From the NCBI GenBank assembly GCA_033964015.1, contig CM066913.1:20359854-20423853 (forward strand): a DNA stretch of 64,000 bases, given 5' to 3'. Origin of the DNA: Scolanthus callimorphus. Taxonomy: Eukaryota; Cnidaria; Anthozoa; Actiniaria; Edwardsiidae. The notes under the pieces were generated by a model, which saw nothing but the letters and a program-made list of their open reading frames with translations, did no database searches and was not told where the DNA came from. Shown piece by piece: positions 7,378 through 50,839 of the stretch; positions within the stretch are counted from its first letter, which is position 1, and each line of letters starts with the position of its first letter. The translations under genes and the position numbers were made by a program.

Positions 7378-10300
7378 ATGGCGGCGTCTAGAAGAATTTG
7401 TGTTGATTGTGGCAAAAGTTTCAGCAAGTCAGCGTATTACCTCCATATGCCATGTAGCAAAACGTCCAAGAACCAGTCCACGGGATCAGGTAAATACCGT
7501 GTACTTTTTTAAGGCTAAAGCCGGCAAACGTTTGGGATAAATGCGAAAATTTTCTGCGGTCGAAATGTGAGAAGACTTTTTGAGACCTAAGCTGAGCTTG
7601 TCAGATTCACAAGAATTGAACAAATAAATCGTCTAGGTTTGTTAAATAACCTTTCAGCTACAAGATGAGTACAAATTTGGAGTATTTTCGTGTGCTATCG
7701 AGCGGATGGAATTGGATTGTGATGACATTTTTAATTTCGTATCAGGCGGAACAGTTTTCAAATTTGGAAATTTGATAGCAAAAGCTGTTAAATCTTACCT
7801 AAATATGCCTATATAATTGAAGTTTCAGTTCCTTTTCCTTTTTGTTGGTATTTTATCAACAAAGTGTTTGTTAGCAAAGAGGTGTATGGCAAAGAAAGCT
7901 TTTTTTATTGTTAAAGGCACAGAATGTTTTGAACTTATACCCCTGAGGCTTTTAAAAATCTTAACAATAAAGAGCTGTCAGAAAATACCCTAGTGATGAG
8001 TCTTTACTCATAATCAGGCCCATAGCAAGCTCAAAGAGGCTGGTCCGCCTCGATTAGTTAGCCTATTTGCGGATCAGCCATTCCTGTAACTAATATTTCA
8101 ATGTAAGAATAAAAAAGTCTGAAGTGAGCGAGGCACTTAACTCGGTAAAAAATTCCAAAATGTTAATGTTTACTTGAGACTTTATAATTGGAAAATTGTA
8201 TAGAGGTTTTTTTTCTGGAAATCTGGCTCACTCTGCCTTGGTTGACAATTTTCTCTTGCTACAGGCCTGATAACTTGGATTGCACAATAAAGTATAGAAA
8301 TGTTTGTTGTTGTTTTTTTTTATGGAAAAAAAATGAATGTTTCTATTTCTAGGTGATTGCTTGACAAGACAAGATTACATTTTTTGCAGTCACTGCAATC
8401 AACGAGTTTCAAGGAGGACTTACAATGAGCATCGGAAACTACGATCAGATATTGGTGTGGCTGCCATTGCTGAAGGTTCTAGTTTGGCTTATTCTGAAGT
8501 TGAAGATGCTGAGTATTTTGATGTTTCTGAAGAGGAAAATGTGTGTCAAGAGGAATATTTTGATGCAGAAGATCAGGTATTCTTCAGCGAGTCAGAGAGC
8601 AGCTCAACAGAAAACACTGACATTGTAAGTATTTACGCAGAACAATTACTATTTTTCTGAGCAACTTTGATTTTCAAGGCTTACTCAGGCATTTGTTATG
8701 ATTTACAGTAAGAACTCTGGAGTTCTGAATAACAGTACATGTACGTTTTTTTGGAGAAAATTTTCCACTATATACAGCCCGTACGTTTATTGATTTCAGC
8801 CATGTCCACTCTATACACACCTTGTTCAGGCCTGTTCTGTTTATTGACATAAATTTTTGCAGAACTCACTTATTAAGACAGTAAGACAGATTTTTTTAGA
8901 ACTTCAAGCATTTTTGCCAGAAAGCGGCAAAAAATCTTGTTACTCGAAATAAAAAAAGTTGTTGCTTCAAAGGTCTTCATGGTAGTGTTCATGTATTAGC
9001 GCGCCGGTAAATAATTTCCAGAGGAAGCTACAAAATAAATTTTATTTTTTACAGATAGACATATTTTTCGCACCTAAAATGGTGATGTCAATCACAGCCT
9101 TTATAGATTCTATAGAATTTTTCCATTTTTGAAAGCTTATTTCTGTGGCGGCGCAAACCCAGTCCTCTGCCTTTTGTGATATTTCGAAATGTGGAACACA
9201 AGTCTACAAATTAGGATAGAAATCACTGAGCAACATTATTTTTTGCCAAAGGTTGCTCGAAGTTGTAAAATAACCTGTCCAAAAAGTATTTTGGTTTTCA
9301 AATCTGCCTTATAGTGGTGATATTTTTGCAATCTTCGAACAAAACTGCATTGTCTGCGAATGTGAGGTCAGCGGTTTTGCTCACAAATAGTGTTTTCTCC
9401 ACTGTATACTATTATACCACTCTGTACTATTATTACACAACTGTCATGGCACAGCAAAGGGGGCAACTGCAAAACACAAAAATCTCACAGCAAAACACAA
9501 TAATCTCATGGCAACACACAATAATAGTTTATTATATAAACACCAATGAAATACCGGGTTATCTCCGGCACGAAAACTTGATATCTTCACATGTGAAAAT
9601 AACAAAATAATATGTTATTTTCACATGTGATAATGTCACACTTGCCTTTGCTCGATGCTAGATTTTTGAGCTTAACTCAAATAAAATTAGAATTTGGTAT
9701 TTCATTGATGTTTATATAATAAACAGAACATTACATGACCGCTTGGAGATACAAATTTTATCTTCTCGTGTAAAAAATTTATCTCACTCGTGAGATAAAT
9801 TTTCAACACTCAAAGATAAAATTGGTATCTCCTCTATGTATTTTGCAGTGAATTGCTGTGAAAATATTGTATTTGGCAGTGGACTCTTTGTTTTGCCGTG
9901 ACAGTTTTGGGCCACCGTAATTATTGGCCCTTGGGTGTTTTTCCACTCTGTGCTATTATTCTGTTTCACTTGAAACATGTCACTGACGGACTTTGCACTC
10001 TTATCCTTGCAGAATGATGACCAAGATGAATCAGAGGAATATGAATATTGTGATGATGAAGAGGAAGATTTCACAGAAGTGCACGTTCAGGGTCGTTCTC
10101 CTGAATCAAAGGCTCTTGTAATGTTTCTGATGCTTTGGCAATCTATGTACAAAGTTTCTGATGCTGGTATCATCATCCTTCTAAAATTTCTTCGGTTATT
10201 TTTCATTACTCTTGGAACTCTTTCACAAGTACGTTATCTCATTGAATTTGCATCAAAACTCCCTACAACAATTTACATGATTAAAGCATGGTTAGGCCTT

Positions 10301-13300
10301 GAGGAAGATGAATTTGAGAAATGTGTTGGCTGTCCAAAGTGCCATACCTTGTATGACCTAAAAGACTGTACTGTGCAGAAGCCCAATGGACGTGTTGTTT
10401 CCAGGAGATGCTCACATGTAAGGTATCCAAGACACCCACACAGAAACAGGAGAAGGGAGTGTGGTGCAGTGCTGATGAAGACCATGAGATCAAAATCTGG
10501 TTCCCTGTTCCTTTATCCTAAACGGCTATATTGCTATAATAGAGTCAGCGAATCACTTCGTGGTCTGATCACTAAGCCAGGGTTTCTGCAGAAATGTGAG
10601 GAGTGGAGGAGGCTACCAAGAGAGCAGGACTGTATGACAGATGTGTACCATGGGAATGTATGGAATGGATTTACTGATGAAGATGGAACAAAGTACTTCT
10701 CCAAGCCTGGTAACCTTGGATTGATGCTGAACATTGACTGGTTTCAGCCTTATAAGCATACCAGTTACAGTTGTGGCGTTATGTATTTGGTAGTAATGAA
10801 TTTGCCAAGACATGAACGATTCAAAAGGGAAAACATTATTATTGCGGGCATAATCCCAGGACCTAAGGAACCAAAGGGCAATATTAACAGCTATTTGCAA
10901 CCAATTGTTGATGATCTTGGTGACCTCTGGGGAGGTATTATCTATGAGGATCAAGCACTCCCAAGTGGGCTGATCAAAGTTAGGGCAGCATTGCTTGCCC
11001 TTTGCTGTGATGTACCTGCGTCTAGGAAATGTGGTGGATTTGCTGGACATTCGGCAAAGCGAGGTAAGCTATACATATCCTTGAATTTCAGAATGTGATC
11101 ATCTACAGTATGTGCATGCATTGGTTTCATTGCAATGTCCTGCCTTTGCAACTCCTTTCGAGTACGTTTGGCATTCACTGTAGCACTTAGCGCAGCTGTT
11201 TAGAGTTGTGCTGACAAATGGTAAAAATTACCAGCTACATTATTCATGTTTTGAATATACTGTATACATGTTATTTACCGGCTGGATAGTCTGTATAGGG
11301 AAGAACTGTGACCGAGGGCTGGTAAATATTGACCGAGTCCTGAGGCCAAGGTCAAAATTTTCAAGGCCGAGGTCACAGTTTTTCCCTATTCACATAAGCC
11401 TTGTAAATGACGTATTTATTTTTTCCAACTTTAAAATTTGATTTTTTGTCAATGAAAACAAGGGCATGCAAATGGTTAGCGTGACCTAGGTCAGTAAATT
11501 GTAACCTAGCTAGTAAATTGTTATATAGCAAGTGCTCACAAATCAAATATTCCCTGATCAGTCAATATTTGGAAATGTTATTGATTGTTTGGGGAATATT
11601 GCTTTCACACGTCGCGTTTGAGAGCGGGGGAAAATAGCAGTAAATTTTCTGCTATATAACAAAACACTTAATGACTACTCCCTCTGGAAACACAGTTTTG
11701 TTTCCCTTGACTTCGTCTCGGGAAACATCGAGGTTGTCGGGAAACAAAATTGATGTTTTCCTCGGGGGCAGTCATTAAGTGTATAATATTGCCCCTGCGC
11801 ATGCTCTAAGAACCAATCAGAATGCAGAATTTGTTAGCATGCCCTCTAGGAAAAAAAGCAATTGGCAAGAACTCTAATATTACTGGTTTGTGATTTTCCA
11901 GGTTGTAGCAAGTGTCGTAAAGAATTTACCACCAGCTCATTCCAGTCAAAGACAGACTTCTCAGGATATGATATTGAGAACTGGGAGCCTAGAACAAATG
12001 AACTACATCGGCTACATGCAAACTCAGCTTGGAATGCAAGCTGCAAGACTCAGCAAAAACAAGTGGTTCGTGACACTGGTGCCAGGTACTCTGTCCTGTA
12101 CCAGCTTCCTTACTACAATGCTGTTCGATTTCTGGTTATTGACCCGATGCACTGTCTATTTCTGGGAATTGCAAAGCAGTGCCTGACACTGTGGAAACAA
12201 GAGGGGCTTTTGTCTGACAAAGACTTCCGCTTGCTTCAGATGAGAGTAGATGCAGTAGTTCCCCCACCTGAAATTGGCAGGATACCATCCAAAGTGGCCA
12301 CTGGTTTCAGTGGATTTTCTGCTGACCAGTGGAAGAACTGGGTATGCTACTACTCTCTATTTGCACTGAAGGGTATTCTACCAACAAGACATTATGAGCT
12401 GTGGTCGCACTATGTAACTGCATGCCGGTATCTGTGTAGTAAGAGAATCTCCCCTGACCAGTGTGCTAATGCCGAAGACGAGCTCATCCTGTTCTGCAAG
12501 GGCTTCCAGTCGATGTATGGTGCAGAGCATTGCACGCCCAACATGCACCTCAGTTGTCATCTTGGTGACTGTGTGAGAGATTATGGACCAGTCTATGGTT
12601 TCTGGTGTTTCTCTTTTGAGAGATTCAATGGGATAATGGGCTCTTACCACAAGAACAACCATAATATCGGTAAGGACTAATATAAAAATAAGAATTCAAC
12701 ACAAGGTTCCGGTATAAAAGGGATAACATCTCCCACTTTCACGCTTGAATCAGCAATTATAAATTGATAACCCAACAGAATGAAATCCAACAATGGACAT
12801 CCATATTTTTGGGATACCTCCATGGAATTTTGCCCAGGGCCAGGGTACACACTCTGGAATTCTACTGTTTTTGATGACTGGGGTGCGGATTTTTTATTGC
12901 CTCACCCCGCAGTCACTGTGGTCCCTGGGTCATTTCGTTTTTTTTTCTTTCGCTAGGTCTGCAGTTTATGAGGAAGTTCTCACGAGATACCAGATTACAG
13001 GCGATGCCATTCCCTGACAAGTGTGAGGAGATGTTTAGTGTCCTTTGCGCCCACAATGAAGGGTCGGTAGCTGATACCCTGCATGCAGATTCAAGTGACA
13101 CCAGTGTACAAGTGTCTCCTCTTCCACCCATCAAGAGAGTCGCTCTCGACTGCCAAGAGTCAGCTGCCATGGCCGACCTGTACACCGAACTATATCCTGA
13201 CAAGGAAATTCACTGCCCAAGACTATGTGACAGCTACTCCAAAGTTCTTCTAAATGGTGTTTTGTGTAGAACAACGCAAACAGTTGGAGTTATTGTTCGT

Positions 13301-13522
13301 TCTCCAGATGGGGAAAGCAGAGCTGCTAAGGTACAAAGGTTCATAAGACATGATGTCGTGGTGAAGAGCCCAAATGGAAAAAGACGCAGAACGACTGACG
13401 ATGTTGCAGAGGTGGAGTGGCTCAACAGTCACCCAGAAAGGCATTCCCGCTACCCTGCACCATTGGAAGTGTGGTCGACGGACACTGCTTGCCGTGCATA
13501 TGTTTCTACTTACCGAGATTAA
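7378..13522 (+). CDS. Tnp2 (EnSpm/CACTA) transposase, five exons
   Basis: Exons 7378-7489, 8353-8624, 10013-11063, 11902-12669, 12957-13522; all junctions are GT-AG with consistent phases (1,0,1,1), giving 922 residues. Residues 8-60 hold two small Cys/His motifs (CVDCGKSF..., CSHCNQRV...H). An acidic stretch follows. A zinc-ribbon-like block starts near 232 (CVGCPKC ... CSH ... C). The catalytic core fits the Tnp2/DDE pattern: D370 in MLNIDWFQPY, D559 in VIDPMHCLFLG, and E718 in SFERFNGIMGSY, preceded by NMHLSCHLGD. It cuts and joins transposon ends in the nucleus. The stop at 13520 follows a likely frame slip: the next frame stays open to 13619 and reads like the family's usual C-terminus. 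Introns 2 and 3 hold palindromic repeats. Confidence 0.85.
8700..9416. other. First part of Tnp2 intron 2
   Basis: No coding sequence seen. The intron runs 8625-10012. Its right half is taken by a palindromic element from 9417; this part shows only AT-rich unique-looking sequence. Confidence 0.5.
9417..9959. mobile_element. Complex palindromic element, copy 1 (in intron)
   Basis: Nested inverted repeats: GTTTATTATATAAACACCAA against TTGATGTTTATATAATAAAC (about 9530-9722), TGTTATTTTCACATGTGA, and ATTTATCTCACTCGTGAGAT. Outer parts carry repeated CACAGCAAAACACA words that pair with a TTTGTTTTGCCGTGACAG side. Both ends read CCACTCTGTACTATTATT (9417) and CCACTCTGTGCTATTATT (9942), 17/18 identical and direct, possibly a duplicated target. 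A second copy lies inverted at 14103-14445. Confidence 0.7.
11290..11395. repeat. Palindrome in Tnp2 intron 3
   Basis: AACTGTGACCGAGG at about 11305 pairs with CCGAGGTCACAGTT at about 11371. Likely the core of a decayed MITE. Confidence 0.6.
11665..11781. mobile_element. Palindromic MITE core in Tnp2 intron 3
   Basis: Arms CACTTAATGACTACTCCCTC and GTCATTAAGTG are inverted copies, and GTTTCCC words pair with GGGAAAC inside. Right-hand flanks hold the CCAATCAGAATGCAG block common to cnidarian MITEs. Confidence 0.65.
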
Positions 13523-18607: not shown

Positions 18608-19770
18608 ATGGGAGACAACATCAAAAGCATTGAAACAAAGCTGAAGCTTTTAAAGGGATGTTGTCACGCAACTGCGCAGCTGTTCTGCGCATCTCAAAAC
18701 AAGAAGCATCGTCCCGTAACGATAGCCAGCGAAGGCTGAAAACCACGAAAACAATCCGTTTTAATCTCACTATTTCTCGACCCATCCGACTAAATGTTTA
18801 CGTTTTACATATTCTTCAATAGTGTTCTGATGGGATGGTCTAAGTAGTTTTGCTCAGTGATCGTTCCTGGAGCATGCGCGTGTCGTGACAGCCTTCCTTT
18901 AAAGTTCACCACTAATCTATTCAAAATAGAAGGGAGTAGCCTTCACGCGATTGTAAGGCAGAGAGTTACGCTCAAATCAAAGGTAACAGACGTCCATCAG
19001 CTCAAGGTAAGGGAGACAGAGCAAAAGATCGAAAAGGGCGAAGATTTAGGAGAGTTAGAGGGGTGGACGAAGCAAATTGAGTGAGAGCTAGCGCCCTATG
19101 AACATGCCATGGAACTTGATCAGGCGATAAGGGGCTTTAAGAATGAACAAAAGGAACGGGAGGAAAGATAGGCTAAAGAAGCCAGACAAAACCTTTACGA
19201 TCAGGAAATTTGAGCAGAAGTTAAAGTTTGAAGGGAAATCAGAAGATCAAAAAATCTACCGCGCACGCGAAATTGCCTAAACTCGATATCTCGCATTTTG
19301 ACGGCTCACCCACAGACTGGTGCGTCTTTGGAGTCAATTTGAGGCTGAGATTGACAGCTCAAAGATACCGCAGATAACCAAGTTTTCTTATCTGGAATAA
19401 TTCATTTAACCCCAGTGAAGTCACTGATAAATGGCCTTCCGTTCACATCAGAAGTTTACGAAAGGGCAAAGAATATATTAAAAACAAGATATGGGAAGCC
19501 CAGTGTCATACTTAACGCTTATGTCACTACCTGTCATTCACGGCTCCAATCCTAACAAAGTCAATGGATTCTTTGAACAATTACTGCAAAATGTGCAGTC
19601 ACTCGAGACAATGGGCAAATTAAAAGAGGTTAATGGATACGCGCGCATGACCCTGGATAAGTTGGTAACAATCAGGGGGGATCTTGTTCGTCTTGACGAT
19701 GACTGGAAGGTGGGAATTCCCTCAACTAGTAGATGCATTGCAAAAGCGGACGCGACGCAACCCCAGTAAG
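18608..19770 (+). pseudogene. BEL/Pao element 1, gag (decayed)
   Basis: Starts MGDNIKSIETKLK after the primer site. It is cut by a 245-bp MITE at 18654, after which the reading frame resumes with a coiled, Lys/Glu-rich stretch. The gag core of the Pao type follows: KLPKLDISHFDGSPTDW near 19270 and MGKLKEVNGY...MTLDKL near 19610. There are several stops and frame shifts (for example TGA at 19081, TAG at 19170), so it is dead. Gag would form the particle that packages element RNA. Confidence 0.8.
18654..18898. mobile_element. TTAA-flanked MITE inside gag
   Basis: TTAA at 18650-18653 and 18899-18902 flank a 245-bp insert with inverted ends (AGGGATGTTGTCACG against AGGAAGGCTGTCACG). Removing it restores a continuous gag reading frame across the site. 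TTAA targets are typical of piggyBac and Kolobok superfamilies; the ends do not start CCC, so the superfamily stays open. Confidence 0.85.
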
Positions 19771-20175
19771 TTTGACGAAAAAACAGCGGAAAACAAATAC
19801 CCTGCGCAAGGGAAACAACCCCCTAGGACCAGAAACTTCCAGACCAAGCAGCGCGAGCAAGCACAATCTCCTCAATGTGTTTATTGCGACTCCATTGATC
19901 ACAAATCCGTCGACTGTATCAAGCACAGCAGTGCTAACGATAGGAAACGCCTACTTAGTCAAACGCATCTCTGTTTTAATTGCACTGGATCCTCACATCG
20001 AGCTTCTAGTTGTAAGTCGCGATCAGTGTGCAGAAAATGTCAAGCACGTCACCACACGTCCATTTGTGATCGATGGAATTCGAACAATGACACTGCAAAG
20101 TCCGAGCAACTACTGACAGCCCACGACGACAAAGGTCGCGTGATTTATCCCAGACAGCTAGCAAACCGCGCATAG
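19684..20175 (+). pseudogene. BEL/Pao element 1, zinc-knuckle region of gag
   Basis: Open stretch with three nucleic-acid-binding knuckles: CVYCDSIDHKSVDC and CFNCTGSSHRASSC match C-x2-C-x4-H-x4-C, and CRKCQARHHTSIC is a shortened third. This array is typical of Pao-type gag. It runs out of frame with the pieces before and after it. Confidence 0.8.
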
Positions 20176-20189
20176 GCAAACCCGTGGCA

Positions 20190-21475
20190 GAACTAACCAA
20201 ATTTGGTTGGACAATTCTTTCACCAGGGAAAGAAAATAGATATTACTAACGTTGTTCTCCTTACTCAAACAAGCGCAACAGATTATGAAGCCCTTTGTAA
20301 GCTCGATGTTTTGGGGTTGCGTGACTCAAATACAGATAGGGAAGTGCATGAAGAGTTCAAGGAGGAGTTGAAAAGAAACGAGGATGGCTCATATGAAACC
20401 GGGTTACCCTGGAAGGCAGGTCACCCCCCGTTGCCTAACAACAAGAACGGCAGCCTGAAAAGGCTCGAAGGAGAAGTTAGAAAAACAGGGAATGCTTCAA
20501 CGCTATGATGATATCATCCAAGATCAACGTGCGTAAGGCATCGTCGAACCAGCTGGAGACCACGTGACCGGCCAGGAGTTTTACATCCCCCATAAACACG
20601 TGATTCGTGAAAATGCTGAGTCATCAAAATGTCGTATTATTTACGATGGGTCAGCACGGGCAAACTACAATTCCCCATCGCTAAACGGTTGTCTGGAGAC
20701 TGGACCACCCTTACAGAATCAACTCTGGCGCGTGATGGTTCGCAACAGGTTCCATGCAGTGGGTGTGGCCGACGACCTCAAGCAAGCCTTCCTTCAAGTG
20801 AGAATACGGGAACAATACAGGGATGCGCTCCGCTTCCATTGGTTGAAAGATCTCAAGAGAAAAGAAGTAGAAGTTCTAAGGTTCACCCGAGCATTGTTTG
20901 GTCTAGCGCCATCGCCTTTCCTTCTCCAAGGAGTATTAAAGGAGCACTTAGAGTTATATAGGAACACGTATCCTACCACTGTAAACGAGATAGAGAAGTG
21001 TATTCATGTTGATTAAAATATCGGGAGCAGAAACCACAGCTAAGGAGCGCCAGTTAAAGCAAACAGCCATCAAGATTTTCGGAGACGGTAACTTTGTACT
21101 GCACAAATGGCACTCAAATGTGTCAGCCTTAGAAGCAGAAAAAGCCACGCCAGCAGAGACGAAATCGGAAGAACAGAGCTATGCTAAGCAGCAGCTAGGC
21201 GTTAAGAGCGGGGAACCTAAGCTTCCTGGGCTAACATGGGATACGGGAAGGGACACCCTTGACATTAGCTTCCCTCCTGAAGAAGCTAAGGCAACCAAAA
21301 GAGAGGTTCTCGGGAAGGTAGCGCGGGTCTAGCATCACCTATGACACTAACCGGCAAGTTGATTTACAGAGATGCTTGCGACGCTCGCATTGCCTGGGAC
21401 GCATGTTTACCAGCAGAGATAACGCTGAGGTTAAGGAGGTGGGAGTATGGCTTTCTTTCTGGAATTGCATGTTTA
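20190..21475 (+). pseudogene. BEL/Pao element 1, pol (RT to connection), truncated
   Basis: 20203-20508 is the region before RT (HEEFKEELKRNEDGSYETGL). 20564-21016 is the RT: KCRIIYDGSAR, GVADDLKQAFLQV, FTRALFGLAPSPFLLQG. The catalytic YVDD-like site is broken: only the first Asp of the pair remains (CIHVD) before a frame shift. 21006-21332 and 21341-21475 continue into the Pao-specific region (PMTLTGKLIYRDACD). Sequence similarity ends near 21475; RNase H, integrase and 3' LTR are absent. Confidence 0.85.
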
Positions 21476-22115
21476 TTGCACGTTTATAGAATTCAACCTC
21501 ACCCTGGATTCCCCGCTAAATGGCAACCGTTAAAAAGATTTGCAAAAAAGGGTACACATAACTGTGACTGAAATATAACTATAACTGCACAATGTAGGGA
21601 CATCTCATCGATAACTTCAAAATATCCTAAATCCTATAGCTGTTAATTAATATAGCCTTTAAACCCTGCTAGAACTCCCCATAAAAAAGACGGGGGTGCT
21701 CCTACTATCCCTTAGGGTATGAAATTAACCCACCTTAAAGAAAGAGAGAGAAAAGAGAGAAGAAAAAGGAGAGAAAAAAAAAATGAAAATCAGAAAAAGG
21801 AATAAGAAATGAAGATCATGAAAAAAGAAGAGTAATAACGTAAAGCAGAAAAAGAAGAAGGTAAAAGAGGAAGAGCTGCTATACATGCAAAGGGTTTCCC
21901 TCGCACAATTGTAAGACGATACGTCCTTGGCCTTGCGACATTTATTAACCCCAACAACTTTGCATAGCCTTTACATTTAAAACACGCTGGTATGTATGTG
22001 AATAAGAAGTTACAATAATCATAGTTACTTGAATAGTTACATCATAGTTTCATCAAACACATAAAATAAAACTTCAAGAGACAATTCTAATTTCATGAAA
22101 TATGTGGAACATGTA
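21476..22115. other. Non-genic; GA-rich low-complexity tract
   Basis: 21735-21880 is almost pure A/G (AAAGAGAG, GAAGAAGG words). No gene. The left inverted repeat of the next unit begins at about 22116. Confidence 0.6.
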
Positions 22116-22330
22116 GTCCATCACCTGAGAGGGTTCTAATACTCATCTCGAGACAAAAGCTGAGACTACCCTAGTTCCAAAGCTTATTTATCAAGGTTTC
22201 CAAAGAGGTATTGCGGACCAAATTGGTAGCCGTCATATAGAAATTCGAGCTTAGCGACGGCCGCCATCTTGTCTCCCAGAGGAAAGCCCGTGTTAAGGAA
22301 ACCTAGAGTCCAAACACTTGTCCTATTAAA
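22116..22330 (+). repeat. Long inverted repeat 1, left arm
   Basis: Matches the reverse complement of 29308-29565 over its whole length with indels: TCACCTGAGAGGGTTCT, ACTCATCTCGAGA, GGTATTGCGGAC, TTGGTAGCCGTCATATAGAA, GACGGCCGCCATCTTGTC, GTCCAAACACTTGTCCTA, in order. The right arm has about 40 extra bases, including a duplicated CCTTTTTGGAAA word. Confidence 0.85.
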
Positions 22331-23426
22331 GATTTCTTTAGATTATCTGATACACTTTTGGTGCTTGAAGTCCCAAACAAACATTTTTGGTGAAAAATTG
22401 TAACTACGTTTTGGGGAATATTTTGGCCTCCAAAAGTTGCGTGACCTTTGTTAGTACAGGTTCAATTTTGGTTAATTAAAAATTCGCTTTCTCATTTTAA
22501 TTCTGTCTTGATATTGATTTCTTGTGAACAGAGGAGACTCATTCCATATGATAGGTACATCCCTAAGCTTCTCAAAACGTATTTCGGGCAGTCCAAGAAC
22601 GCTATTTTTCATGTGGGAAACCTACACGAAGCCGAACTCGCTCTGCAATTCAAGTCCTTCTTGTCTGTTTGTCGTTAGGCGCCGCTAAGTGGAAACCCGC
22701 GCGTTCGGCTCAAAATATTCTAAGATAAATATAGAAAATTTAAGTCTGTTCCATTTCCAACACCATTGTTTTGGAGAAAAATAAACCTACCTGCTCAACT
22801 CTTTTCGGGAAAATAATGACACGTTTTCCAGTCGTATGGTTTTTAAGCTTATCCGATCGCGCGCTCTTTTAATAGTATTCAATTATCCCCGACTCAAATT
22901 CTATATTGCTAAAGAAAAACATCCAACGCGATCGCATATTAAATGAAATACATTGTAAGTCTAAATAGATTAGAATACTGGATAGCTAGATGGTAGCCTA
23001 AGGATAATGAGAACAAAAAACTTTGGAAAGGAAAAAATTCACTTGAGAGAAATAAAGCAGTCGGTGCAGCGGAACTAAAGAGGGAAATGAGAAAATGTTT
23101 ATTGTCTGGCAAAATCAAACACGGAACAGTTGCGCTTGAAATCATGAACATGTGTTTGTTTGTTTACTGTACATTACGTCTAATCACCTGTCTTTAAAAA
23201 AATACTGAGTTGAAATATAATATTGGCTCCCGCGAGGGAGGAGAGTTGTAGAGAAATGTTTTGCTTCGATGTATTACTCTTTGATATTTTACGCTCGCGC
23301 TTCTACGAATCATTAGCATATGAATGGGAGGTGAATTCACATTTTTGCGCTTAGTGACCAGACCTGCTAGACTCACAAAGTGGAATGTGTGGCGTCCATG
23401 TTGTCCACTAGTGCTTAGAATTTCTT
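22331..23426. other. Spacer inside long-inverted-repeat unit
   Basis: No recognised gene. An open frame at 22448-22678 includes a stretch after CTTGTGAACAG (possible acceptor) but has no known domain. The rest is AT-rich. Confidence 0.4.
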
Positions 23427-25344
23427 ATGAACTCTCATATGATGGATCGCTGTATAATTTGCAATGAGTTTGGTTCGAGATTATCGCTGTGCAAGGATGC
23501 GGAATCATGGGGAAGGCTGCATCGCGCGGCAGTTGTCAGGAAGAACCAAAAAGTTCTTGAACTTTCATCCGGTGAGGATGAGTATCCAACAACGCCCGTT
23601 AAGTATCATGTGGCTTGCAGGAAAGATTTCGTCAATCAAAAGAGTCTCGATAAGTAGCAATTTGTGCCACGGATTTGATAAGTAGTGAGGCTAAGTACCA
23701 TTCCTCTTGTTACTCTGCATTCACAAAAATTATGTATTCAAATCCTGGGAAGGGCGTATCAAGGGAGGATAACGCTCACAGTGGCCAAATTGACTTGATC
23801 TAAGAGGCAGTGATCTCTTTTTGCGATAATTTAATTGCTACGCCCAGAGTTATAGAATTCCGAGAGTTTCGCAAGGTAATGGCAGACGAGGCCGCCAAGT
23901 TAGACATTTCTATTTCTTAGTCACAGTATAAAAACTTATTACGCGTAGTGTCAAACAACTCTCCAGAACTTGAATTCATCATTATCAACAAAATAAAGTA
24001 CTTGTCTATCCCTCTACTATTGAAATGGAGAAGCTTGTCGTTCATAATTACGAGCTTCGATGAGAACCGGACGGCAGTGAGAAAAGTGTGACGGGCGTGG
24101 CTAGACTACTTCATGACACAATCGGTGATCTCTCGATAGAAATGCCTTGGAAACCGGAGGGAAGGACCTAACGCCAGAAAAAGTACAGCAATACGTCCCC
24201 GAAATACTAGACACTTTTTGCACAGTTCTTATTTCGTGTCAGCCGAAAGACTGCGATAGAAGCAAATCCCACAAAACTCTTCGTCTTAAAAACTCCCTTG
24301 CTCAGGATATCGTATGTGCGGAATCTAACGGTAGCAAGAGACCTCCTAAAAGCGTGCTATTCCCCGCTGTTGTAAAGGCGATATGCAAATATACAGAGGT
24401 AGTAAAGCTCATTAACAAATATGGACACGGGATAAGCTACAATTTGATAGAAGAGATAGATACGGAGTATGCCCTTAAGGTAATAAATGAGCAAGCGCTC
24501 AGAGGAGTGCGCATGCACGGAGAGTGAAAGCCCAGCCGTTGCTCTCATGGTTGCTAACAATATCGACAATCTAGAATGTACTGTCACTGCAGCAGGCATG
24601 TCTCACAAGGTCAACTCAATCCTGGTTCTCAAACGGAAGGTCGAGGAAATACAAGAGGAAGAAGGTGAAGAAGAAGAAGGGTCAGAACAGCTACCAGACA
24701 ATCCTACGGCAAAGCGGAAATGCCGGCGCGCCCTATTGTCCGACGTAGTTACAAGAGAAATTCCCGATTATTATGGCGGAAGACGGATTGGACCGGGAGT
24801 ACTTTCTCACATTCAATATCTCGGTGTCTCCTCCTCTTCCGCCGAACGCACGAAGAAGGTACGAGTACAATATCTTGTCTGGATGGAGATGCGCAAGCTT
24901 GCAACGCACCCCTTCATACTTGTTCCGGGATGGACTGGTTTTAACATCAAGATCCGTGATAAGATTGTCATCGTCGAAAGCACCATTGGCTACCTTGACA
25001 CTCTTGACTCTTCCGCCACTGATCTAAAAACGGCCTATGAGGTGATACGTCGAGGGTGCGAAATCAAAGAAAGGCTGAACCTGAAGTATGTAGCTTGCGT
25101 CTTCGATCAAGCCTTGTACGCCAAAGCTATGGAGGTCTATTGGATGCAGAAGGCACAATTCCAAGGAATAGTGATTATGATGGGTGACTTCTATCTTCTG
25201 ATAACGTTGTTGGCGATAATTGGCAGTCGGTTTGGGGAGGCTGGTCTCCGCGATTTAGCGATCCAAAGTGAAGTTATCGCCGAAGGTTCCGTGGATAGCG
25301 TACTAAATGGGAAACACTACAACAGGACCACCCGACTGCACAAG

Positions 25345-25500
25345 ATTATTCATATTATTCACCTGTTCATACATTTTGATATTTGTCATCCTTACACGGC
25401 TCTCACGAAAACCAATTCTCTTGTAAATTGATTAAATGTCCGTGTAGAAATACAGCTGTATGTATTTCTGTTTATGTATTTATGTATATAGATCACTTGT
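25345..25500 (+). other. Interruption in the unnamed gene
   Basis: After GKHYNRTTRLHK the conserved frame is broken by about 150 bp of AT-rich sequence (TTTATGTATTTATGTATATAG) and resumes at about 25505 with EAITRLLLDDFEVSL. It ends in AG but does not start with GT, so a small insertion or decayed intron is possible. Confidence 0.45.
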
Positions 25501-26837
25501 GAAGCCATCACACGACTTCTGCTAGACGACTTTGAAGTTTCATTAGGCGATGAAAGTATTGAAATTTTAATGGAAGCTAAGGATAAGCTCTCTCAAATTT
25601 TAAGTTCAATCTAAAAGCTTAAAAGCTTAAAAGCTGAATCTATGCCAAGAGGAGTATGAATGCACCACGGCTAGTCAAGAAATCTGCGACTGGGAATGCA
25701 AGCTCCAAGCATATGTTTCTAATCTAAGGGAGAACGGCAGTGATCTCAGCTATCAAGATCTTTGCGAGCTCCTGTTCAGCCTAGTATACGACACCCGAAC
25801 AGGGAGTTGGGAACTCTACCTCGCGTGTATTGATAAAGTAATCCCTTGGACATCTGCCTAAGACAGGCAAACTATGCACGATATTTTGTACCATATTTTG
25901 CTGACATGCGCGCACTACCAGAGACAATGCGCCGACGTCTATGCTGCAGGACACTTCAGCGTGCAAATAAGCAAGCATAACCCATTCGGTCAAAATGAAG
26001 CCGACAAGACCATCGAAAATACGATAAACCTGTAAGACATCAGAAGGTGATATCGGTTTCAGCGCGAATTTTCCCGCCACGCAGAGATGGGTTCTAAACA
26101 ACACCAGGCGAAGCGCATACAGGCGCCTAACGTGGGAACACTTGACTCAAGACCAGAACGAGTCTAAGACGATACATAATGATTTCACGCCATCTCATAT
26201 CAAAACCGACGCAGCAGCCGTGGCTAGAGTGACAGATGTTTTAGAGAAGGTGCTGAAAAATCCATGGAAGAAGGACTCGTAGCTCACTAGTCTGTCAACC
26301 GGACTGGTTGCGACCCCTAGTATCCGGGATGACCTCTTCCAGGCAAAGTCAAAAGGATTGGTCGCGAGTAGAGACCTTGTTCTTCAACGTTGTTCACAGA
26401 ATTCGACTGTTGATTTCTTTGGTACTCTCAAGAAGATGAAATTGAAAGGTTTCAAGTTGTGTCTACGATCCGAACAAAGGATGCCGTACTGCCGATTAGG
26501 CTAGATCGAGCTGTATTCGTGCGAATGACCCTGATTGGGCAGGTGCGAAAGATTGACATGAGAACAGTATTTTCCTTCCCGCAAGGGCCGCTTCCTTTGG
26601 CGCTCGCAGATCCATATGGATTTCCAAGGAAAACCGCTAATGCCTCGTTTGCGCTGCAGCTGGAAAAGGATGCGCGTGTTTGTGATAGGTACCCAGAGGA
26701 CGCCACTACCATCTTTGACGGAATGACCGTGCTACAGAAGTTCAAACCTCCTCCTGGCGCCACATTCGCGGTAGCAGCAGAGAAGCTATTTGACCTGTTA
26801 GTCGACGGATAGATGTTGTGTTTGACGTCTACAAGGA

Positions 26838-26998
26838 CATAATAATAATAGTAATATTTATTGCAATATCAGATCTCTAGACAGACGTAGAGATTTACAT
26901 AGCATAATTAAATTAAATAACTCAGATGTATTCAAATAACCATCTGTTAATAAACACTTTCTTGAAACGTTTAGTTTTTACTTTAGGGAGAATATACT
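26838..26998 (+). mobile_element. Small AT-rich insertion in the unnamed gene
   Basis: Starts with (ATA)n after a block reading VFDVYKD, and ends where the family sequence resumes with ISIKNVERSKR. About 160 bp, no clear inverted ends. Origin unknown. Confidence 0.4.
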
Positions 26999-27237
26999 GA
27001 TGTCCATAAAGAATGTGGAAAGATCAAAGCGCAATGCAGGAACTCAAGGAGTGACGTACAGGAATATCTTGCCTGGATACCAAATCAAGAACTGGAGCAA
27101 CTTCCTCATTGTCTCAGCGAATAAGACCGAGCTTGTGCGTTTTCTGGCAGAGGAATTGAAAGGGGAGTCATACAGAAACAAATTGAGTGCGAAAACAGTT
27201 TATGTGACGTCACAAGAGCAGTGCTGGAAGACCTCGT

Positions 27238-27545
27238 CTCGAGAGGCAAGCCTTGTTCCGGAGCTTCAGTCCACTCAAGAAGAGGCGGATACTCGCATGC
27301 TGCTCCACGCCAAGCACGCAAAAGGCAAGTGCGTAATTCAGTCAGATGACACGTACGTTTTAGTGTTACTCCTAGGACAGGCCCACGCGCTCTCGAGAGG
27401 CAAGCCTTGTTCCGGAGCTTCAGTCCACTCAAGAAGAGGCGGATACTCGCATGCTGCTCCACGCCAAGCACGCAAAAGGCAAGTGCGTAATTCAGTCAGA
27501 TGACACGTACGTTTTAGTGTTACTCCTAGGACAGGCCCACGCGCT
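27238..27545 (+). repeat. Perfect 154-bp tandem duplication
   Basis: 27238-27391 and 27392-27545 read identically by eye. The unit covers the STQEEADTRMLL and DDTYVLVLLL blocks. Because 154 is not a multiple of three, the second copy is thrown into another frame. Identity this high in a gene with much older damage implies a recent event or an assembly artefact. Confidence 0.9.
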
Positions 27546-28276
27546 TGATGAGTGCTATCTAAAGAAAGGGGCAGGGTCTAAGAGCAGGATCATAGAAATA
27601 GCACAAGTCGCACAAAGGCTAGAGAGGCTTGCAACTCCGGACATCGACACGCGAGACATTATAGACTCCCTGGTAGGATTCCATCTCTCACCGGATGTGA
27701 CTCAGTTTCTGCATTTTCACAAAAGGCAAATGGCGCCCACTTCAAAAAGTTATCAAGGATAAGAAGTTTGTAGATGCTATGAAAGATGTCGGAGCGAGCT
27801 GGACTGTAGCAGAGACGACTCTCGCTGCGATAGAAGAGTTCGTGTGCGTAATGTATGGAAAGGGAGGACCGAGCGTGAATAACCTCAGGTACGAGCTCCG
27901 CTGCGCCAAGGGAGGAAAGATCGAGCCAGATGCGTTACCACCTTGTCAATCATCCCTCCGCTTACACATTACTCGATCAAATTACCAGGCGGCAATTTGG
28001 CGGAGAGCGCTTGAAGCGTACCCAGATGTACCTCTCCCTGTCGGACAAGGATGGGTTCTTGACGATTCCAGCGAACTCACCTTTGAGTGGCTCGGCTCCA
28101 AATCTGCCCCAGAAGTGGTACTTGAGCTTCTCTCATGCACGTGCCGACGCACATATGTAGTAGAAACATGCTGCTGCCTAAAAGCGGGCTTGAAGTGTAC
28201 TGAGATGTGCAGCGCAGTATGCGACAACATGGTGAATGATGGCGATGAACTCAATGAGATGGGAGTGGTTGTTGAT

Positions 28277-28325
28277 GGTGACGATGATGATGATGATGGT
28301 GGTGATGATGATGATGATGACGAAT
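28277..28325 (+). repeat. (GAT)n microsatellite
   Basis: Runs of GATGAT with two GGT interruptions, encoding the Asp-rich tail of the unnamed pseudogene. Likely a slippage product rather than a conserved domain. Confidence 0.8.
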
Positions 28326-28327
28326 AG

Positions 28328-29307
28328 CTGTATACCCTGCCCGCCCAAAACGTAATAGCCACGTAAGTATTGGTTTACTGTTTAGACGTTGTTCCTAAAA
28401 CATTGTGTGTATTCTAAATCATTTTCAGAATAATGCAGAATGAGGTGAGCAGATTGAATTTGACAGATGTGCTAGCTGGGGATTGAATTTGACAAATGAA
28501 TATTGGACGTGAAAAGCAACGCTCTAGGTACGTAAGCTTAGCAGATGCTCTCCCATCCCCTTTAATTTCTAACAAGAAGAGCTAAATCATCACACCATGG
28601 CACTTGCTTTCAACAAAATGGTCTCTCTTTCTCTCTCTACAGAACCATACAGATTTGAAGTACAGTTTGTAACAACATGATGGGTTATGTCACGTTTTAT
28701 GAGAATATCCGTGTAAGTATAATTTCAACAGTTGGTTTCTGGCATTGGGGTCCGCTGAACGGATGGTGCTTCCTTTTTCTAGTGACGATTATTTTTAGGA
28801 CCGGATGCCTGAGAAAGCTTAAAGATGTGAAGTTACAACTTTGATTTTAGAAATTTGCGAAAGAAAAACGTTTATAATTGCCCGCTGAGATGCTTTAAAA
28901 AATGTGTAGTAACAAGCTTGATTTTTGAAATTTGCGTCGGGCCTCCTCCCTCCCCTTCCCCCCCCCCCCCCCCTTATTTTCATTTCCTGGATCCGCCCTT
29001 GCCAAACAGTACTTTTATCAATTTCAGGCGACAACACAAGCAGACGAGAACAGATTCTTAGGAAACGATGTGAAAAGCACTACATGTCTGTAAATTCAGC
29101 TGCTTTTCTTGTTGCCAAAAATCAAGACTATCGATCCAACTTTGGAGAACCGTGATCTAAGTTTGAAATAATTTATTGCTTTTGTTTTATTCTAAAGCAA
29201 AATTATTGGATGCATACACTACTAACCACTCATCTGTCTGCGACCGTTGTTGGCAATGTCGGGTTACAAACAGTGAAAAAATGTTAGTACTCAAAGTGAT
29301 ATAAACT
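28328..29307. other. Spacer inside long-inverted-repeat unit
   Basis: No gene. A duplicated degenerate block (TTTGATTTTAGAAATTTGCG near 28840; TTGATTTTTGAAATTTGCG near 28918) is followed by a C run (about 28960-28974) and CCTGGATCCGCCCTTG, a sequence often seen at ends of animal MITEs. Confidence 0.5.
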
Positions 29308-29565
29308 TTGGTAGGACAAGTGTTTGGACTTTGTTTATCGATATTTTCTCAACACGGCTTTCCTCTGGGGACAAGATGGCGGCCGTCGCTAAGTTCGAGT
29401 AGGTTGTAAACAACCTCGAATTTCTATATGACGGCTACCAATTTGATTTGTCCGCAATACCTTTTTGGAAACCTTTTTGGAAACCTCCGAACTAGGCTAG
29501 TAGAACTAGACTAGGCTGTTCTCTCGAGATGAGTATCAGAACCCTCTCAGGTGATGAACTAATTG
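29308..29565 (-). repeat. Long inverted repeat 1, right arm
   Basis: Inverted partner of 22116-22330, see there. Outside this arm the sequence (CTAATTGTGCCACAC) does not match the left outer flank, so any target duplication is not obvious. Confidence 0.85.
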
Positions 29566-30353
29566 TGCCACACTTTCTAATTGAGTGAAGAATGATTAAA
29601 AGAAACAAATACACTAATTCAAACATTTTTCAGGAGAAAAGAAAAGGCTCAGAAATTACTTTAAAAATTGAATGGGAGAATCCTGATAAAGCGCTGCCAT
29701 TTTTCATAGCGAAATGTGAATTTATGCAGCACATGGAAAGGCAGGAGCAATAACCTATCATACTTACTTACTTACTTACTGCGGCGGCCTCAGCCGAACC
29801 TCGCATCTCGAGCTCCAGTCGCTCCTGTTGAGCATACAGGAGCCAAGCTCAGTGGTATTGGCCGCACCGGTATCGCTCCGGAGAGTGTCAACCATAGTTG
29901 TCATACGTCCCATCAACTGCCTGTGGCTCTGGCAGTCATTGTCACACAACACTATCACTGCATGCATATTGTCCGCTATTACAATCATCCTTTAAATCAG
30001 TTACTTTTTTTTTCAAGAGGAAAAGCGGTTATCGATAAGCTATAACGAATTGGAAATACGCATTTTGTAAAACGAATCACAGAAACAGATGACAACTCTG
30101 TCGAGGAAGTGGGCTTATCTTGAAAGTATTTATAAAGATGTATGTATGTATTTCGAGCTGCAGATGAAAAGATTTCTGGTAAAAGGAATAGAAGCATCAA
30201 GAAGAATTTTTCAGTTTGATTCACCTGGTATGAATGAGGTTGTGAAAAACCCTCGAAATTTTCCCGCCGACATGGCGTCGGCAAGCTGTGAACAACAAGA
30301 CGACATGCCCTGTTGTTTTAATCTAAACTAACAAATAAATCGCCTTCCAGTTC
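29566..30353. other. Non-genic stretch with (ACTT)n microsatellite
   Basis: 29761-29780 is (ACTT)5. Open frames at 29716-30045 and 30089-30331 show no known domain. Confidence 0.45.
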
Positions 30354-33289: not shown

Positions 33290-34062
33290 CGGGAGGCACT
33301 ATAATCGGAGGGATAACATGCTAACGCATCATGCTAACTATTCGGACTTGAGCAATAATGCTCATAAGTCAAAGGACTGCATGAAAGTGCTGGACGTAGC
33401 CAGTAGGAGAGAAGTCCTGAAACAACAGAAGCTATGCTATAATTCCACCAGGGGGGTCATATGGCTAACAAATGTACATCAGGTAACTGCGAGAGGTGTA
33501 GCTTAAAGCACCATACATCCATCTGTGATAGAATACCAAGCAGGTCTTCACTTCCAACCCCAGCCGCCCCTGGTAATTCCAAAGTCAGGTTCTATGGGGC
33601 AGTAGACCTAGTAAACACGACATTACATGCCACGGCCATAGACCATGTGAATGGCATCCCAGCTCGTATCATGCTAGATAGTAGGGCTGGGATCTCGTAC
33701 ATGAGCTCCAATTTACTAACCAAGTTAAATCTTCAACCAAGTAGGGTCAAGAGGAGGGTGATGGAACAAATGTATGGGACAGTTGAGAAGCAGGTGGAGA
33801 TCTACAAGATTCAGCTTGGCTCGACTGTGATCGACAGCTTCAGCATAGAGATCCAGTGCATCAACACAGAGAAGCCGATCATCACCAACCTCCCCGATTC
33901 AAGAATCCCTGAGCTGAAGCAGAAACATACTAAGCTCAGACGACTAACATTCAGCGATGAGGGCTCAACAGAGAAAAGGTTGCCCGTACACGTCATACTC
34001 GGCGCAGCTCAGCCTAGTCCCTGGCGTTCTGGGCTTCCAGTGGTAGAAGCGCGACGTCACAG
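33290..34062 (+). pseudogene. BEL/Pao element 2, zinc knuckles and aspartic protease
   Basis: SNNAHKSKDC and CERCSLKHHTSIC are the remains of zinc knuckles. The protease follows in a longer open frame (33461-34102): ARIMLDSRAGISYM carries the active-site Asp, but the usual Gly after it (D-S/T-G) is Arg here, so the enzyme would be inactive. LPVHVILGAAQ is the conserved second block of Pao-type proteases. Confidence 0.75.
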
Positions 34063-35545
34063 GAAGTTGACGTCACAGGAAAAGCCCTCCTCGAACGTCT
34101 AGTGAAAATCCAAGATGGCGGAGATTTTGAGGGATAATCAAGAAAGGTAGCTGAAACCAAACAAAAAGCGCCAAATCCGCAGAATATTTGGCATGAATAT
34201 GGAGATTGAATGAATATGAAGATAACAACTCGTGTACCAGGTCTGGTTATTCACTGAACATTGTTATGAATGGATCTATTTCGTGATTTTAACATTGTTC
34301 TTAATTCCTCTTCCGCGGTTGCATAACTTAGTTTATCAATCATGGTTGTTGCAAATATCCACTTCTACTTCTAGTACTCATTTTCCAATCGAATATTTTC
34401 TCATAGAGCTTACAAACCAAACATGGTCAAAGTTATAAACCATTAAAATTGTGGCAGAAGGTGTCACCACTTTTGGAGTTCTTTCTTTGATTAACGACAA
34501 GATCTCTGTATCCTGATTAAACAAAGATAAAGATACTACTGTACCAATCTAATTCACACTGGTTATCGAAATGTGCATAATTCCAGAAAAGATTCATACC
34601 CCCACCATGGAGGAAATTGGGGTGGCAGGTCAAAATGCACCTCTTATTTCCCATATAATCACTGTTAGTGATTTCAAAGTCAGTAAATGTATTTGGCTAT
34701 ATCTATAATTGGCATAAGTACCACTTGTGAAATGTCTAAAGTGTTTTGCAATTTCACTCACCTTTCAGCTAGTGAAATTACACTTTTCAGACGCATTACT
34801 TGCGGTGTTTATGCCAAATATCACTACAAATCATACAATTATCTACAGCTTCCTAATGTGGTGGAGTTATGGATCATTTCTGGAATTACAGTGGCATAGT
34901 GAATTGTATGAATAAGCATGGAGTTATCCAGTTATTATGTGGGTCCCGCATAATAACTCCATGGTATAAGTGATTAGTTTAGAAAGTTTACATTTAGATG
35001 TATTCTGCATGAAATAAGGCATCAAATTTCTACTGAACTTGAAGATTTTGTAGTGCTATCATCACTAAATACTCAGAAGGGAATTCGGTTTCTCAATCAC
35101 ATAGCATGAGGCACAATTCACTGAGGTATTAGCAGGACTAACACACCTGCTGGTAATGAACGATGGGAATTTTTACAAACAGCAAAATGGGGTCTGCACA
35201 ACTTACAGATAATTCAAATACTCAATATTATTCATGAGCTAATCAGCCAACCAAGCTCTCATTTTGTACCACTTGCAGTACCTTGAAATCCCAGGAAGAT
35301 ACTGCAAGTGGACTTTTGAACTATGAATATTCATAATATTTGAAGGTCCTCCCCCTCGAAAGATTGTTCTACCAGGCAGACTGTAGGAACCGCTCCGTGA
35401 AAAGACACAGGTCTACTCTCGGAGAACTCGATACAAAGGATTTTTGTTCCAGACTATATGCATGGCCACCGCCAACTTTCATGTGGGACAGGCTTTATGG
35501 AAACAATCTTGACCTGTTCACTCGACCTGCGCATGACTAGTTCTA
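34063..35545. other. Non-pol sequence splitting BEL/Pao element 2
   Basis: Similarity to Pao stops after HVILGAAQ and resumes as RT at 35546. Between them are a duplicated GACGTCACAGGA word (34053-34080), a MITE (34580-34886), a hairpin GTTATTATG/CATAATAAC (34934-34962) and unrecognised sequence. Confidence 0.5.
34580..34886. mobile_element. MITE, TTCCAGAAA-type, copy 2
   Basis: Inverted ends ATTCCAGAAAAGATTCATAC at the left and ATTCCAGAAATGATCCATAA as read from the right. Same design as 15429-15612. Confidence 0.65.
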
Positions 35546-43699: not shown

Positions 43700-43885
43700 A
43701 CTTTAAGTAGACTTTTTTAGATGACAAAAAGTTTGATACTTTCAGTTTACTTCTTTTCTGCCCTCGACCACCAAATTTTGTTTGCCTGCTGTTTAAGTAC
43801 ACAAACTTGTACCGGTCTGAGCTTTCACATGGTTACCCCGGAGGTTTGAACTTTATTGTAATGTGCATTTTGTTGTGATCGGATG
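43700..43885 (+). repeat. Long inverted repeat 2, left arm
   Basis: Pairs with 50840-51020: CTGCCCTC, ACCACCAAA, TTTGTTTGCCTGCTGTT, GTCTGAGCTT, CACATGGTTACCC, TTATTGTAATGTG, ATTTTGTTGTGAT in the same order on opposite strands. The pair encloses the LINE nest. Confidence 0.8.
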
Positions 43886-44722: not shown

Positions 44723-45778
44723 TTAGGACTCAGATTGGGTTAATGGACTGAGAATATTTGAAAGAGGATCCCATTTTTGAAAGTGAAAAGCTAAGTTACC
44801 CTTTTCTCTAGAAAGGCGAAGTTCAATTTCATGTACATATCTTAATCTGCTTTTAAAGTTTTGTGAGCGTAGGTGGTTGATCACGTATTTTACAAGAAAA
44901 AATGTGATATTTTGCAAGAATTATTAAATGGTTCAGCAAAATAAGAAATAAAAGGGTGCCATCTTCAGCAAACAAGTCTCCAATTTTATTTATACCTTTA
45001 AAAGACATCCACTTATGGTACACGGATTTTTTTCCTAGACAAATTAACTTGTTATTCCATAATAACTGGTTTGCGATATCCTCCGCTGTTTCTATTTTAA
45101 CTGATTGTTTTAGCTGAATCCAGGCTTCCAATGCCTCACGATAGAAGGCGGGGAAATTACTGTTCAAATTTAACTTATCCACTTCGAAGTTACAATGAAA
45201 AAGAAACTGTCCGCTTACACTTTTTAAATAACAATTTAGTATTGTTTTCCAAAAAGACATCTCTCCGTTGATGAATTTCTTGATGCACATAACTCTTTGA
45301 GCCTTGATCATGGAAATGATGTCAGGCATTTTCAACCCACCATTTTCGATATCATTTATTAGTGAAAGTCTTTTTACCTTGTCTTTTCCATTCCAAACGA
45401 ATTCAAACAATAACCGATTTACTTCTTTGAGAAAGTCCTTATCACACGAGGTAACAGAACAAATGTATAAGATCTTAGGTACTATAAAGGTTTTAATAAT
45501 TTGAATCTTCCCAATAATAGACAAGCCTCTCCATTTCCAGGCATTAAACTTGTTTCTGATAAATTCAAATACTGAATCGAAGTTAAGCGTTTTTAGCAAT
45601 CGATCATGGTTTGTAAAATACACGCCAAGAATTTTGACAGCAGATTTGATCTCTTTGACCATTAATTCCGCTTCAGTAATTTTGATGGATCCTAATCGTA
45701 AAACCTCTGTCTTATCTTTATTAACTTTCAAACCAGAAACAACGCTAAAACGGTTTAGAGTCGAAAACAAATGAATAT
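44723..45778 (-). pseudogene. LINE ORF2, end of RT and C-terminal domain
   Basis: Reads FSTLNRFSVVSGLKVNKDKTE, ILGVYFTN, LSIIGKIQIIKTFIVPKILY, FVWNGKDKVKRLSL, GGLKMPDIISMIKAQR: the thumb and C-terminal part of an L1/Tx1-like non-LTR RT. A frame slip in an A-run near 44900 moves the last 50 residues (LRYVHEIELRLSREKGN) to the next frame. The piece joins the RT core at 50275 once the transposon is removed. Confidence 0.85.
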
Positions 45779-46438
45779 AAGAGGGTCATTCCACAGTATT
45801 GTGAGCCTGAACATCAAATTCTGAAAACAACTATCTCTGACTTAATTTGGTAATAAACTTAAAGAGTGATGCCTGAAGTTTATTTTACAGATGTTTGTTT
45901 TTGAATAGTAGTCGGCAGACATGAATAAATTACAATTGTTTATGCAAATTCGGAAAATGACTGTTGCGGAGTCTACATTTTGATTTTTTGTTAAAAAAAG
46001 AAAGGCCAAAAAACATTAATGGAACTTTTCATAGACATTACCTACCATTGGTTTGCCTTGTAAAAATACCTTGCAATCTGGGATGTGCTGCTAAAGTGTG
46101 ACAGAATTTGCTGTCCAAGGCAGGTCTGTAGACTCCGCAACAAATTTGGCACTTTAAGTTTTAGTAAAATACTAAAAAATATAGATATTTGACTGAAAGT
46201 TTGTTAACTTCTAATTTATTAAGACTGCAAACATTATCATAAAAATATTCAGTGTAAATATATTTCCTTGCAAATAAAAATGCAATTGTTTTTTGTTCTA
46301 CAACTGGCCCTAGCAACTCTAGGAGACTGGGCCTAGAGAACTACTGAGCATGCTCTGCCTAATTTCCCAGAGAATTGTGGGTAATATAGTGACTGCACTC
46401 ACATCTAGTTGTGTAATGTGATTAAGATTGCTTTGAAA

Positions 46439-48400: not shown

Positions 48401-48419
48401 CATCGCTCCACGGAGGGCA

Positions 48420-49245
48420 TGCAAAGAAAGAAGATAACTTTCTTACTAACTTTGTCATCGACATGTACCTGCAAATGCTCCAAACTGTTTCGCCTAACAT
48501 TGTTGTATTTCCTTGGGAACAATTTGAGAAGTCCTCAATCACCGGACGCCAATTATTTGCTAAAGGAAAACTCCTTGAAAAAGACCTTATCATCACACCT
48601 TGCTGCCCAGTTGGAGGTGACCACTGGTTTCTGGTGGCAGCTATGCCCAAGGAAAAGTCCATCTTTGCTTTTGATAGCCTGGCAGGGTCATTTGTTAAGC
48701 CCACAGCTGAAGTTGCTATTTGCAAAATGTGGCATGTCCTCAAGAAGGCTGACAGCAGCTTGGATAAATGTATGTGGAGATTTGTAGCAAACAAACCAGA
48801 AGATTTGCCACAACAAGCAAATGAAATTGACTGTGGTGTATTTCTTTGCATGTATGCTAGGTGCTTGGCCACTGGTGCCCCAATGCTCTGCAAAGATCCT
48901 GACATCCCAGCAGTTAGAGAGCAGATGCTTTTTGAGCTTCACTATCAAGCCTTGCTTCCCCCACAAACAAGCATCATTGAAAAAGATCAGTATTATGCAG
49001 TGGATTATGTGAAGAAGTACTACATAGGCAGAGCCTTAGATGCCTCCAGTGATGGATCCCTTATACCATTCAAGTTCCTCTATTATGTTGGAGCACAGAG
49101 GTTTGGTTGGCCAATCAGAGATGATGTAGAAAGTGTCCACCCCTCTTGTATATTCCATGGCCCACTGGCATTGCAAGGGAATGGGCCCTTTGAGATCCCT
49201 AACTTAGATGAGGTAGAGGCTGTTTTCAAGTTGCTGAAAAAATAA
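48420..49245 (+). pseudogene. Ulp1-type (C48) cysteine protease domain of transposon
   Basis: Open from 48463 to 49245 (260 residues), with the first part (KEDNFLTNFVIDMYLQML) starting out of frame at 48420. Catalytic pattern is complete: His in GDHWFLVAA, Asp in FAFDSLAG, Gln/Asn in QQANEIDCGVFLC with the Cys at DCG. Ulp1-like proteases cleave SUMO-type tags; several animal and plant DNA transposons carry one. This domain is the only long uninterrupted part of the gene, so the protein broke in its N-terminal half. The tail after 49090 is unassigned. Confidence 0.8.
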
Positions 49246-50274: not shown

Positions 50275-50702
50275 TCTTTTATCCCTCAAAAAAGCGGTGA
50301 TGTCATCCGCAAAGGATACAAGCTTTATTTCATTTCCTTCAACATTGATACCTTTGATCTGAGGGTCATCTCTAATTTGGATAGCCAAAAGCTCTAAAAC
50401 AATAATAAACAAAAAAGGCGAGAGGGGATCTCCCTGGCGAACTCCAGATGAAATATTAAAAAAGGGTGTGGCGTATCCATTATTCGTTACACAGCTGGAT
50501 AAATTTTTGTAAAACATACTTATCCAAGAAATGAACGAGCTTCCAAAATTGAACTTTTCAAGAGCTCTCAACAAAAAATCCCGATTTACTGAATCGAAAG
50601 CTTTTTCGAAGTCTATTGTAGTTAACAATGAATCCACCTTATTGTGATTTGTATAATGTATAATATCATTGATAGTTCTTATTGCATCAAAATTAGTTCT
50701 GC
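50275..50702 (-). pseudogene. LINE ORF2, RT palm core
   Basis: Reads NFDAIRTINDIIHYTN, LLTTIDFEKAFDSVNRDFL, NGYATPFFNISSGVRQGDPL, VSFADDITAFLRDKRS. FADD is the catalytic site and the pattern is intact. The 5' end is lost at 50702. Confidence 0.9.
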
Positions 50703-50839
50703 ATTCTCTCCAAACTTGCTGGGATTATTGTCTGCTACTTACTCTGGATTAAGTGTCATTATAAAAGTCTAGATCGAGCAACACATCTACTGTCACCCTA
50801 ATAATAAACAAGGGCGTGGCTATTATGTTGCTATAGCAA

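Follow-up and report, generated by a model that had tools for sequence, protein, structure and literature searches.

The window analysed here, a 64,000-nucleotide stretch of the cnidarian Scolanthus callimorphus (GCA_033964015.1, contig CM066913.1, positions 20,359,854 to 20,423,853 of the forward strand), contains what is very probably a mobile element, in which the remains of a single large gene lie between two inverted arms. We hold it highly likely that this unit was once an autonomous DNA transposon of the cut-and-paste type, now decayed, belonging to the AcademX lineage of the Academ superfamily, Academ having been compared by its published description. The assignment to AcademX was made because the transposase, the nuclease and a 3-bp repeat flanking a relative, L003, agree with the AcademX description; Academ membership is strongly suggested rather than proven, the match being one of description and not of reference sequences. 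The element is laid out as follows (window coordinates, strand).

22114..29561, + strand: likely whole element, 7,448 bp (arm alignment; terminus placed by comparison with the L003 ends)
22114..22334, + strand: 5' terminal inverted repeat (arm alignment, L003 comparison)
29303..29561, - strand: 3' terminal inverted repeat (arm alignment, L003 comparison)
23442..28261, + strand: remains of a single large gene (tblastn with the relatives P0001 and P0003)
23442..23713, + strand: N-terminal Cys/His clusters CIIC, YHVAC and YHSSC; the intervening CxxC pair conserved in relatives is missing
24502..26029, + strand: predicted DDE transposase domain with helical insertion
24550-24570, + strand: region of the first DDE Asp, reading ANNIDN; this Asp is lost
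25099-25119, + strand: region of the second DDE Asp, FDQA kept
25997-26029, + strand: region of the DDE Glu, EADKTIE kept
26711..27708, + strand: predicted FEN/XPG-like nuclease domain
26711-26725, + strand: nuclease motif FDGM
26818-26838, + strand: nuclease motif VFDVY
27237..27544, + strand: exact 154-bp tandem duplication in the nuclease domain, repeating the EEADTR region
27279 and 27433, + strand: nuclease motif EEADTR, two copies
27342 and 27496, + strand: nuclease motif DDTY, two copies; second Asp of DTD lost
27679-27708, + strand: region of the last nuclease Asp
28136..28228, + strand: C-terminal Cys-rich motif, which we take to be CXC-like

Searching with the joined read-through of the window gene brought up 14 proteins, and a profile search listed 15, 8 of them new, giving at least 22 relatives in total. 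Since both protein searches limited scoring to the candidates with the most words in common (7,990 and 7,993), their yield is not a full census. Most of the relatives (17 of 22) are 1,379 to 1,719 amino acids long and unbroken frames of about 1,550 amino acids exist, somewhat longer than the 1,200-1,400 codons first estimated for the window gene in the initial annotation. Some relatives represent 126, 92, 87 and 27 member sequences in clusters at 90% identity; clusters of this size suggest recent multiplication, although their members may be either genomic copies or repeated assemblies. Against this family the window gene is heavily damaged: it carries frameshifts, stop codons and two insertions and lacks one stretch. 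By tblastn, P0001 matched the window in 12 pieces (23442-28261; 46-82% identical) with changing frames and some stops, the counterpart of its residues 71-163 was absent, and stretches at about 25342-25494 and 26839-26999 within the gene showed no homology. With its frame disrupted and each active site short of one catalytic Asp, the window copy is dead. The Pfam scan of eight open reading frame pieces from the window copy gave only matches at E 0.03 or worse, all under the cut-offs.

The motifs singled out in the initial annotation (VANNIDN, EEADTR and others) are all present in the window, and fold models place them in two distinct domains. The VANNIDN region, together with VFDQA and EADKTIE, is modelled as the core of a DDE transposase, separate from the nuclease site, and the three candidate catalytic residues D467, D643 and E888 are invariant among the relatives where present. 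Foldseek returned no significant match for the DDE model; in a second fold comparison, the model of P0009 appeared as an RNase H-like DDE core with a helical insertion resembling that of the P element, Hermes (hAT) and RAG1/Transib. At E 0.1, none of the 20 relatives scanned was matched by a Pfam model of P element, hAT or RAG/Transib. DUF6589 (PF20231) did match 6 of the 20 at E 0.1 or better, over the DDE region and its helical insertion, the score for P0013 being 32.7 bits (cut-off 27); DUF6589 covers the DDE region in P0012, P0013, P0014 and P0022, and P0001 and P0003, which are close to the window copy, gave no DUF6589 match. DUF6589 is probably part of the transposase domain, and our literature search showed no mention of it in the 10 top-ranked papers.

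The second domain contains the EEADTR and DxxVLVLL motifs, for which an acidic nuclease-type site had been proposed. This proposal was borne out by the modelled fold, which is of the FEN/XPG (PIN-like) kind in 50 of the 50 matches listed, the DDE fold lying in the other domain, and by the conservation of the acidic residues: D1126 is kept in 20/20 relatives, D1166 in 20/21, E1264 in 18/19, and E1265, D1267, D1287, D1289 and D1353 in 19/19 each. A sequence profile searched against PDB reached human EXO1 at E 0.34, which is suggestive only, and aligned at two positions expected to carry Asp. Pfam reported no nuclease domain in the 20 relatives scanned.

The arms themselves are real and enclose the decayed gene, as had been claimed. 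Self-BLAST of the window aligned 22103-22334 with 29303-29572 in inverted orientation at E 3e-47; of the 274 alignment columns 201 are identical and 46 are gaps, which makes 88% identity (201/228) once the gaps are set aside. The arms scored 176 bits, compared with a median of 17.5 and a maximum of 107 (two values) among 293 other pairs of 400 bp at similar spacing; the values of 107 bits probably come from another inverted pair. This second pair (43751-43883 / 50841-50955; ~7 kb spacing, 76% identical) was seen in the same self-BLAST. The arms are most likely the terminal inverted repeats of the element. Both of the ends that we infer by comparison with L003 begin TAGT(C/T)CATCACC, the sequence taken as terminus being TAGTYCATCACC, and they lie a few bases from the limits of 22116-29565 set in the initial annotation; the arm similarity extends 11 bp outward past them on each side.

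L003 was one of two relatives encoded among 33 pattern matches in a GTDB scan. It is filed under a Bathymodiolus gill symbiont and the other, L002, under a metagenome-assembled genome of Planctomycetota; both are probably contaminating animal (host) or other eukaryote contigs. In L002 a frame of 1,466 amino acids stays open to the gene end and begins inside the gene, its 5' side being cut; this contig shows only short inverted pairs (18-26 nt), and its matches to the non-coding parts of the window were of low complexity only. Of the gene, L003 retains just the C-terminal part, which contains a frame change, and both of its flanks are present. Its inverted ends share an identical TAGTAGGGTGCCC and span 3,282 bp end to end; two inner arm pieces gave E 2e-6 and 2e-5, and the gapped arm alignment, which runs past the proposed ends, scored 189.5, where 500 Markov resamples reached at most 149.0 and 500 window pairs at most 145.0. 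Terminal inverted repeats are seen in both the window element and L003, and past TAGT the two sets of arms show no likeness, their score of 107 lying below the 136 reached by resamples. Among viral contigs, 150 stretches fitted the peptide pattern and none encoded a relative; the one match there to the two arm patterns, L001, was rejected as chance, since little beyond the 18-mer itself agreed.

Immediately outside both inverted ends of L003 stands TTA, a 3-bp direct repeat, so that inverted repeats and a flanking direct repeat occur together in the only relative for which both flanks are present. The window element is flanked by ATG and ATT at its proposed ends, and no perfect 3-bp or 4-bp repeat was found around it in 38 registers. 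Two points limit the transposon interpretation: the case for a target duplication rests on one relative, L003, and the arms by themselves are no proof of termini or of a mobile unit, because dispersed inverted repeats exist in the window, including the pair at about 7 kb spacing. A decayed host gene flanked by an inverted pair of miniature inverted-repeat transposable elements (MITEs) unrelated to it could give such an arrangement in a window rich in repeats, and that other pair would fit; however, the protein models as a transposase, the distant relative L003 has inverted ends of its own that are different, and no third copy of the arm was seen within the 64-kb window by self-BLAST. We consider a host gene of this kind very improbable, and the initial proposal of a mobile element with the arms as its termini is supported by the modelled transposase and by the inverted ends and TTA flanks of L003.

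The flanks also bear on which branch of Academ is concerned. In an AcademH-type element the Academ transposase would be accompanied by a helicase, and target duplications would measure 9-10 bp; if the termini are set at 22112 and 29563, the window element has 9-bp flanks that agree in 7 of 9 positions, with 7 of 10 in another register. Yet this is the best of 190 comparisons and falls in a nearly palindromic stretch, a nuclease domain is modelled instead of a helicase, and Pfam found no helicase family in 20 relatives apart from a stray XPD-arch match at E 0.036, a second gene outside the ~1,550-amino-acid protein not having been searched for. AcademH is, in our estimation, the most remote of the alternatives.

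As for AcademX, its nuclease, in Kojima's work of 2020, is reportedly of the XPG type. Academ itself dates from 2010, going by a reference list, and a survey of bivalves counts 100 curated Academ consensus elements with a mean length of 5,565 bp (PMC10294476). According to PMC10045372, AcademX has target site duplications of 3 or 4 bp and AcademH of 9 or 10 bp, a difference seemingly tied to the encoded nuclease or helicase. A DDE-plus-nuclease transposon of a separate superfamily, not yet named, might also be considered, given that the close relatives are nameless in Pfam and NCBIfam, that the comparison with Academ is by description, and that our literature search found no paper naming Academ together with XPG as whole words. 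This we judge unlikely, since a nuclease-encoding lineage with 3-4 bp duplications is already described in that paper and L003 has a 3-bp repeat. The idea that the enzyme had never been described is not supported: a superfamily lineage with transposase, nuclease and 3-4 bp duplications, AcademX, is in print there.

If the AcademX assignment is right, one protein of about 1,550 amino acids would bind the terminal inverted repeats, perhaps via its Cys/His and Cys-rich ends; the RNase H-like DDE domain, a fold supported by the model, would cut the element ends and join them to target DNA; the modelled FEN/XPG-like domain would cleave a structure at the ends, be it the second strand, a flap or a hairpin; and insertion would leave a target duplication of 3-4 bp, of which 3 bp is seen in one relative, L003. 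We put forward only tentatively that the two domains share the work of excision: one strand would be cut, and strand transfer carried out, by the DDE domain, while the other strand, flap or hairpin would fall to the nuclease, so that the nuclease and not the DDE domain sets the short duplication. Were this true, second-strand cleavage by a repair nuclease built into the transposase would make an unusual mechanism. The window copy is a fossil, and its value lies in the anatomy of the protein: a family mostly without a name in Pfam and NCBIfam is read as a transposase plus an EXO1/FEN-like nuclease, and candidate residues of the active sites are located. Annotators could mask such genes as transposons, and a protein is defined on which the role of a nuclease in transposition is testable.

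Remains of other elements and further repeats surround this unit, and scanning the window for Rfam families and tRNAs gave no matches.

9974-13522, + strand: remains of a Transposase_21 (tnp2) gene of a CACTA-type element (Pfam E 1.2e-17 for 9974-11095; weak DUF4218 at 11850-12677)
19669-21571 and 33443-34102, + strand: zinc-knuckle and polyprotein-like pieces, presumably BEL/Pao retrotransposon remains (Pfam gag-asp protease below cut-off at 33443-34099)
44853-45785, - strand: possible further non-LTR (long terminal repeat) piece, without a Pfam match
48391-49245, + strand: open frame with an Ulp1 (Peptidase_C48) protease domain among transposon remains (Pfam E 1.4e-17)
50254-50724, - strand: reverse transcriptase piece RVT_1 (Pfam E 4.9e-21)

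Self-BLAST also showed long imperfect palindromes of the MITE or hairpin kind (52274-52400, 57366-57519, 58492-58657, 62222-62448 and others) and a group of direct repeats at 59755-61825, several copies long, each about 320-470 bp and 78-92% identical.

Compared with known systems, the modelled transposase domain resembles the P element, Hermes (hAT) and RAG1/Transib in its RNase H-like DDE core with a helical insertion, and differs from them in sequence (identity of 9-11% or less) and in that the matched chains are listed without a FEN/XPG domain. DUF6589 is annotated in Pfam as of unknown function, whereas the DDE region of this family is read as transposase. The second domain is like the EXO1, FEN1 and XPG nucleases in its modelled fold and acidic cluster, and unlike them at 11-12% identity and in being one domain within a transposon protein. 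AcademH would belong to the same superfamily if our assignment holds, but it is characterised by a helicase and 9-10 bp target site duplications (PMC10045372), in contrast to the nuclease, with no helicase found, seen here. From AcademX, compared by description and with a dead window copy, no difference was shown, and the two are alike in the combination of transposase and nuclease, in the short duplication (3 bp, L003) and in the terminal inverted repeats (Kapitonov & Jurka 2010; Kojima 2020).
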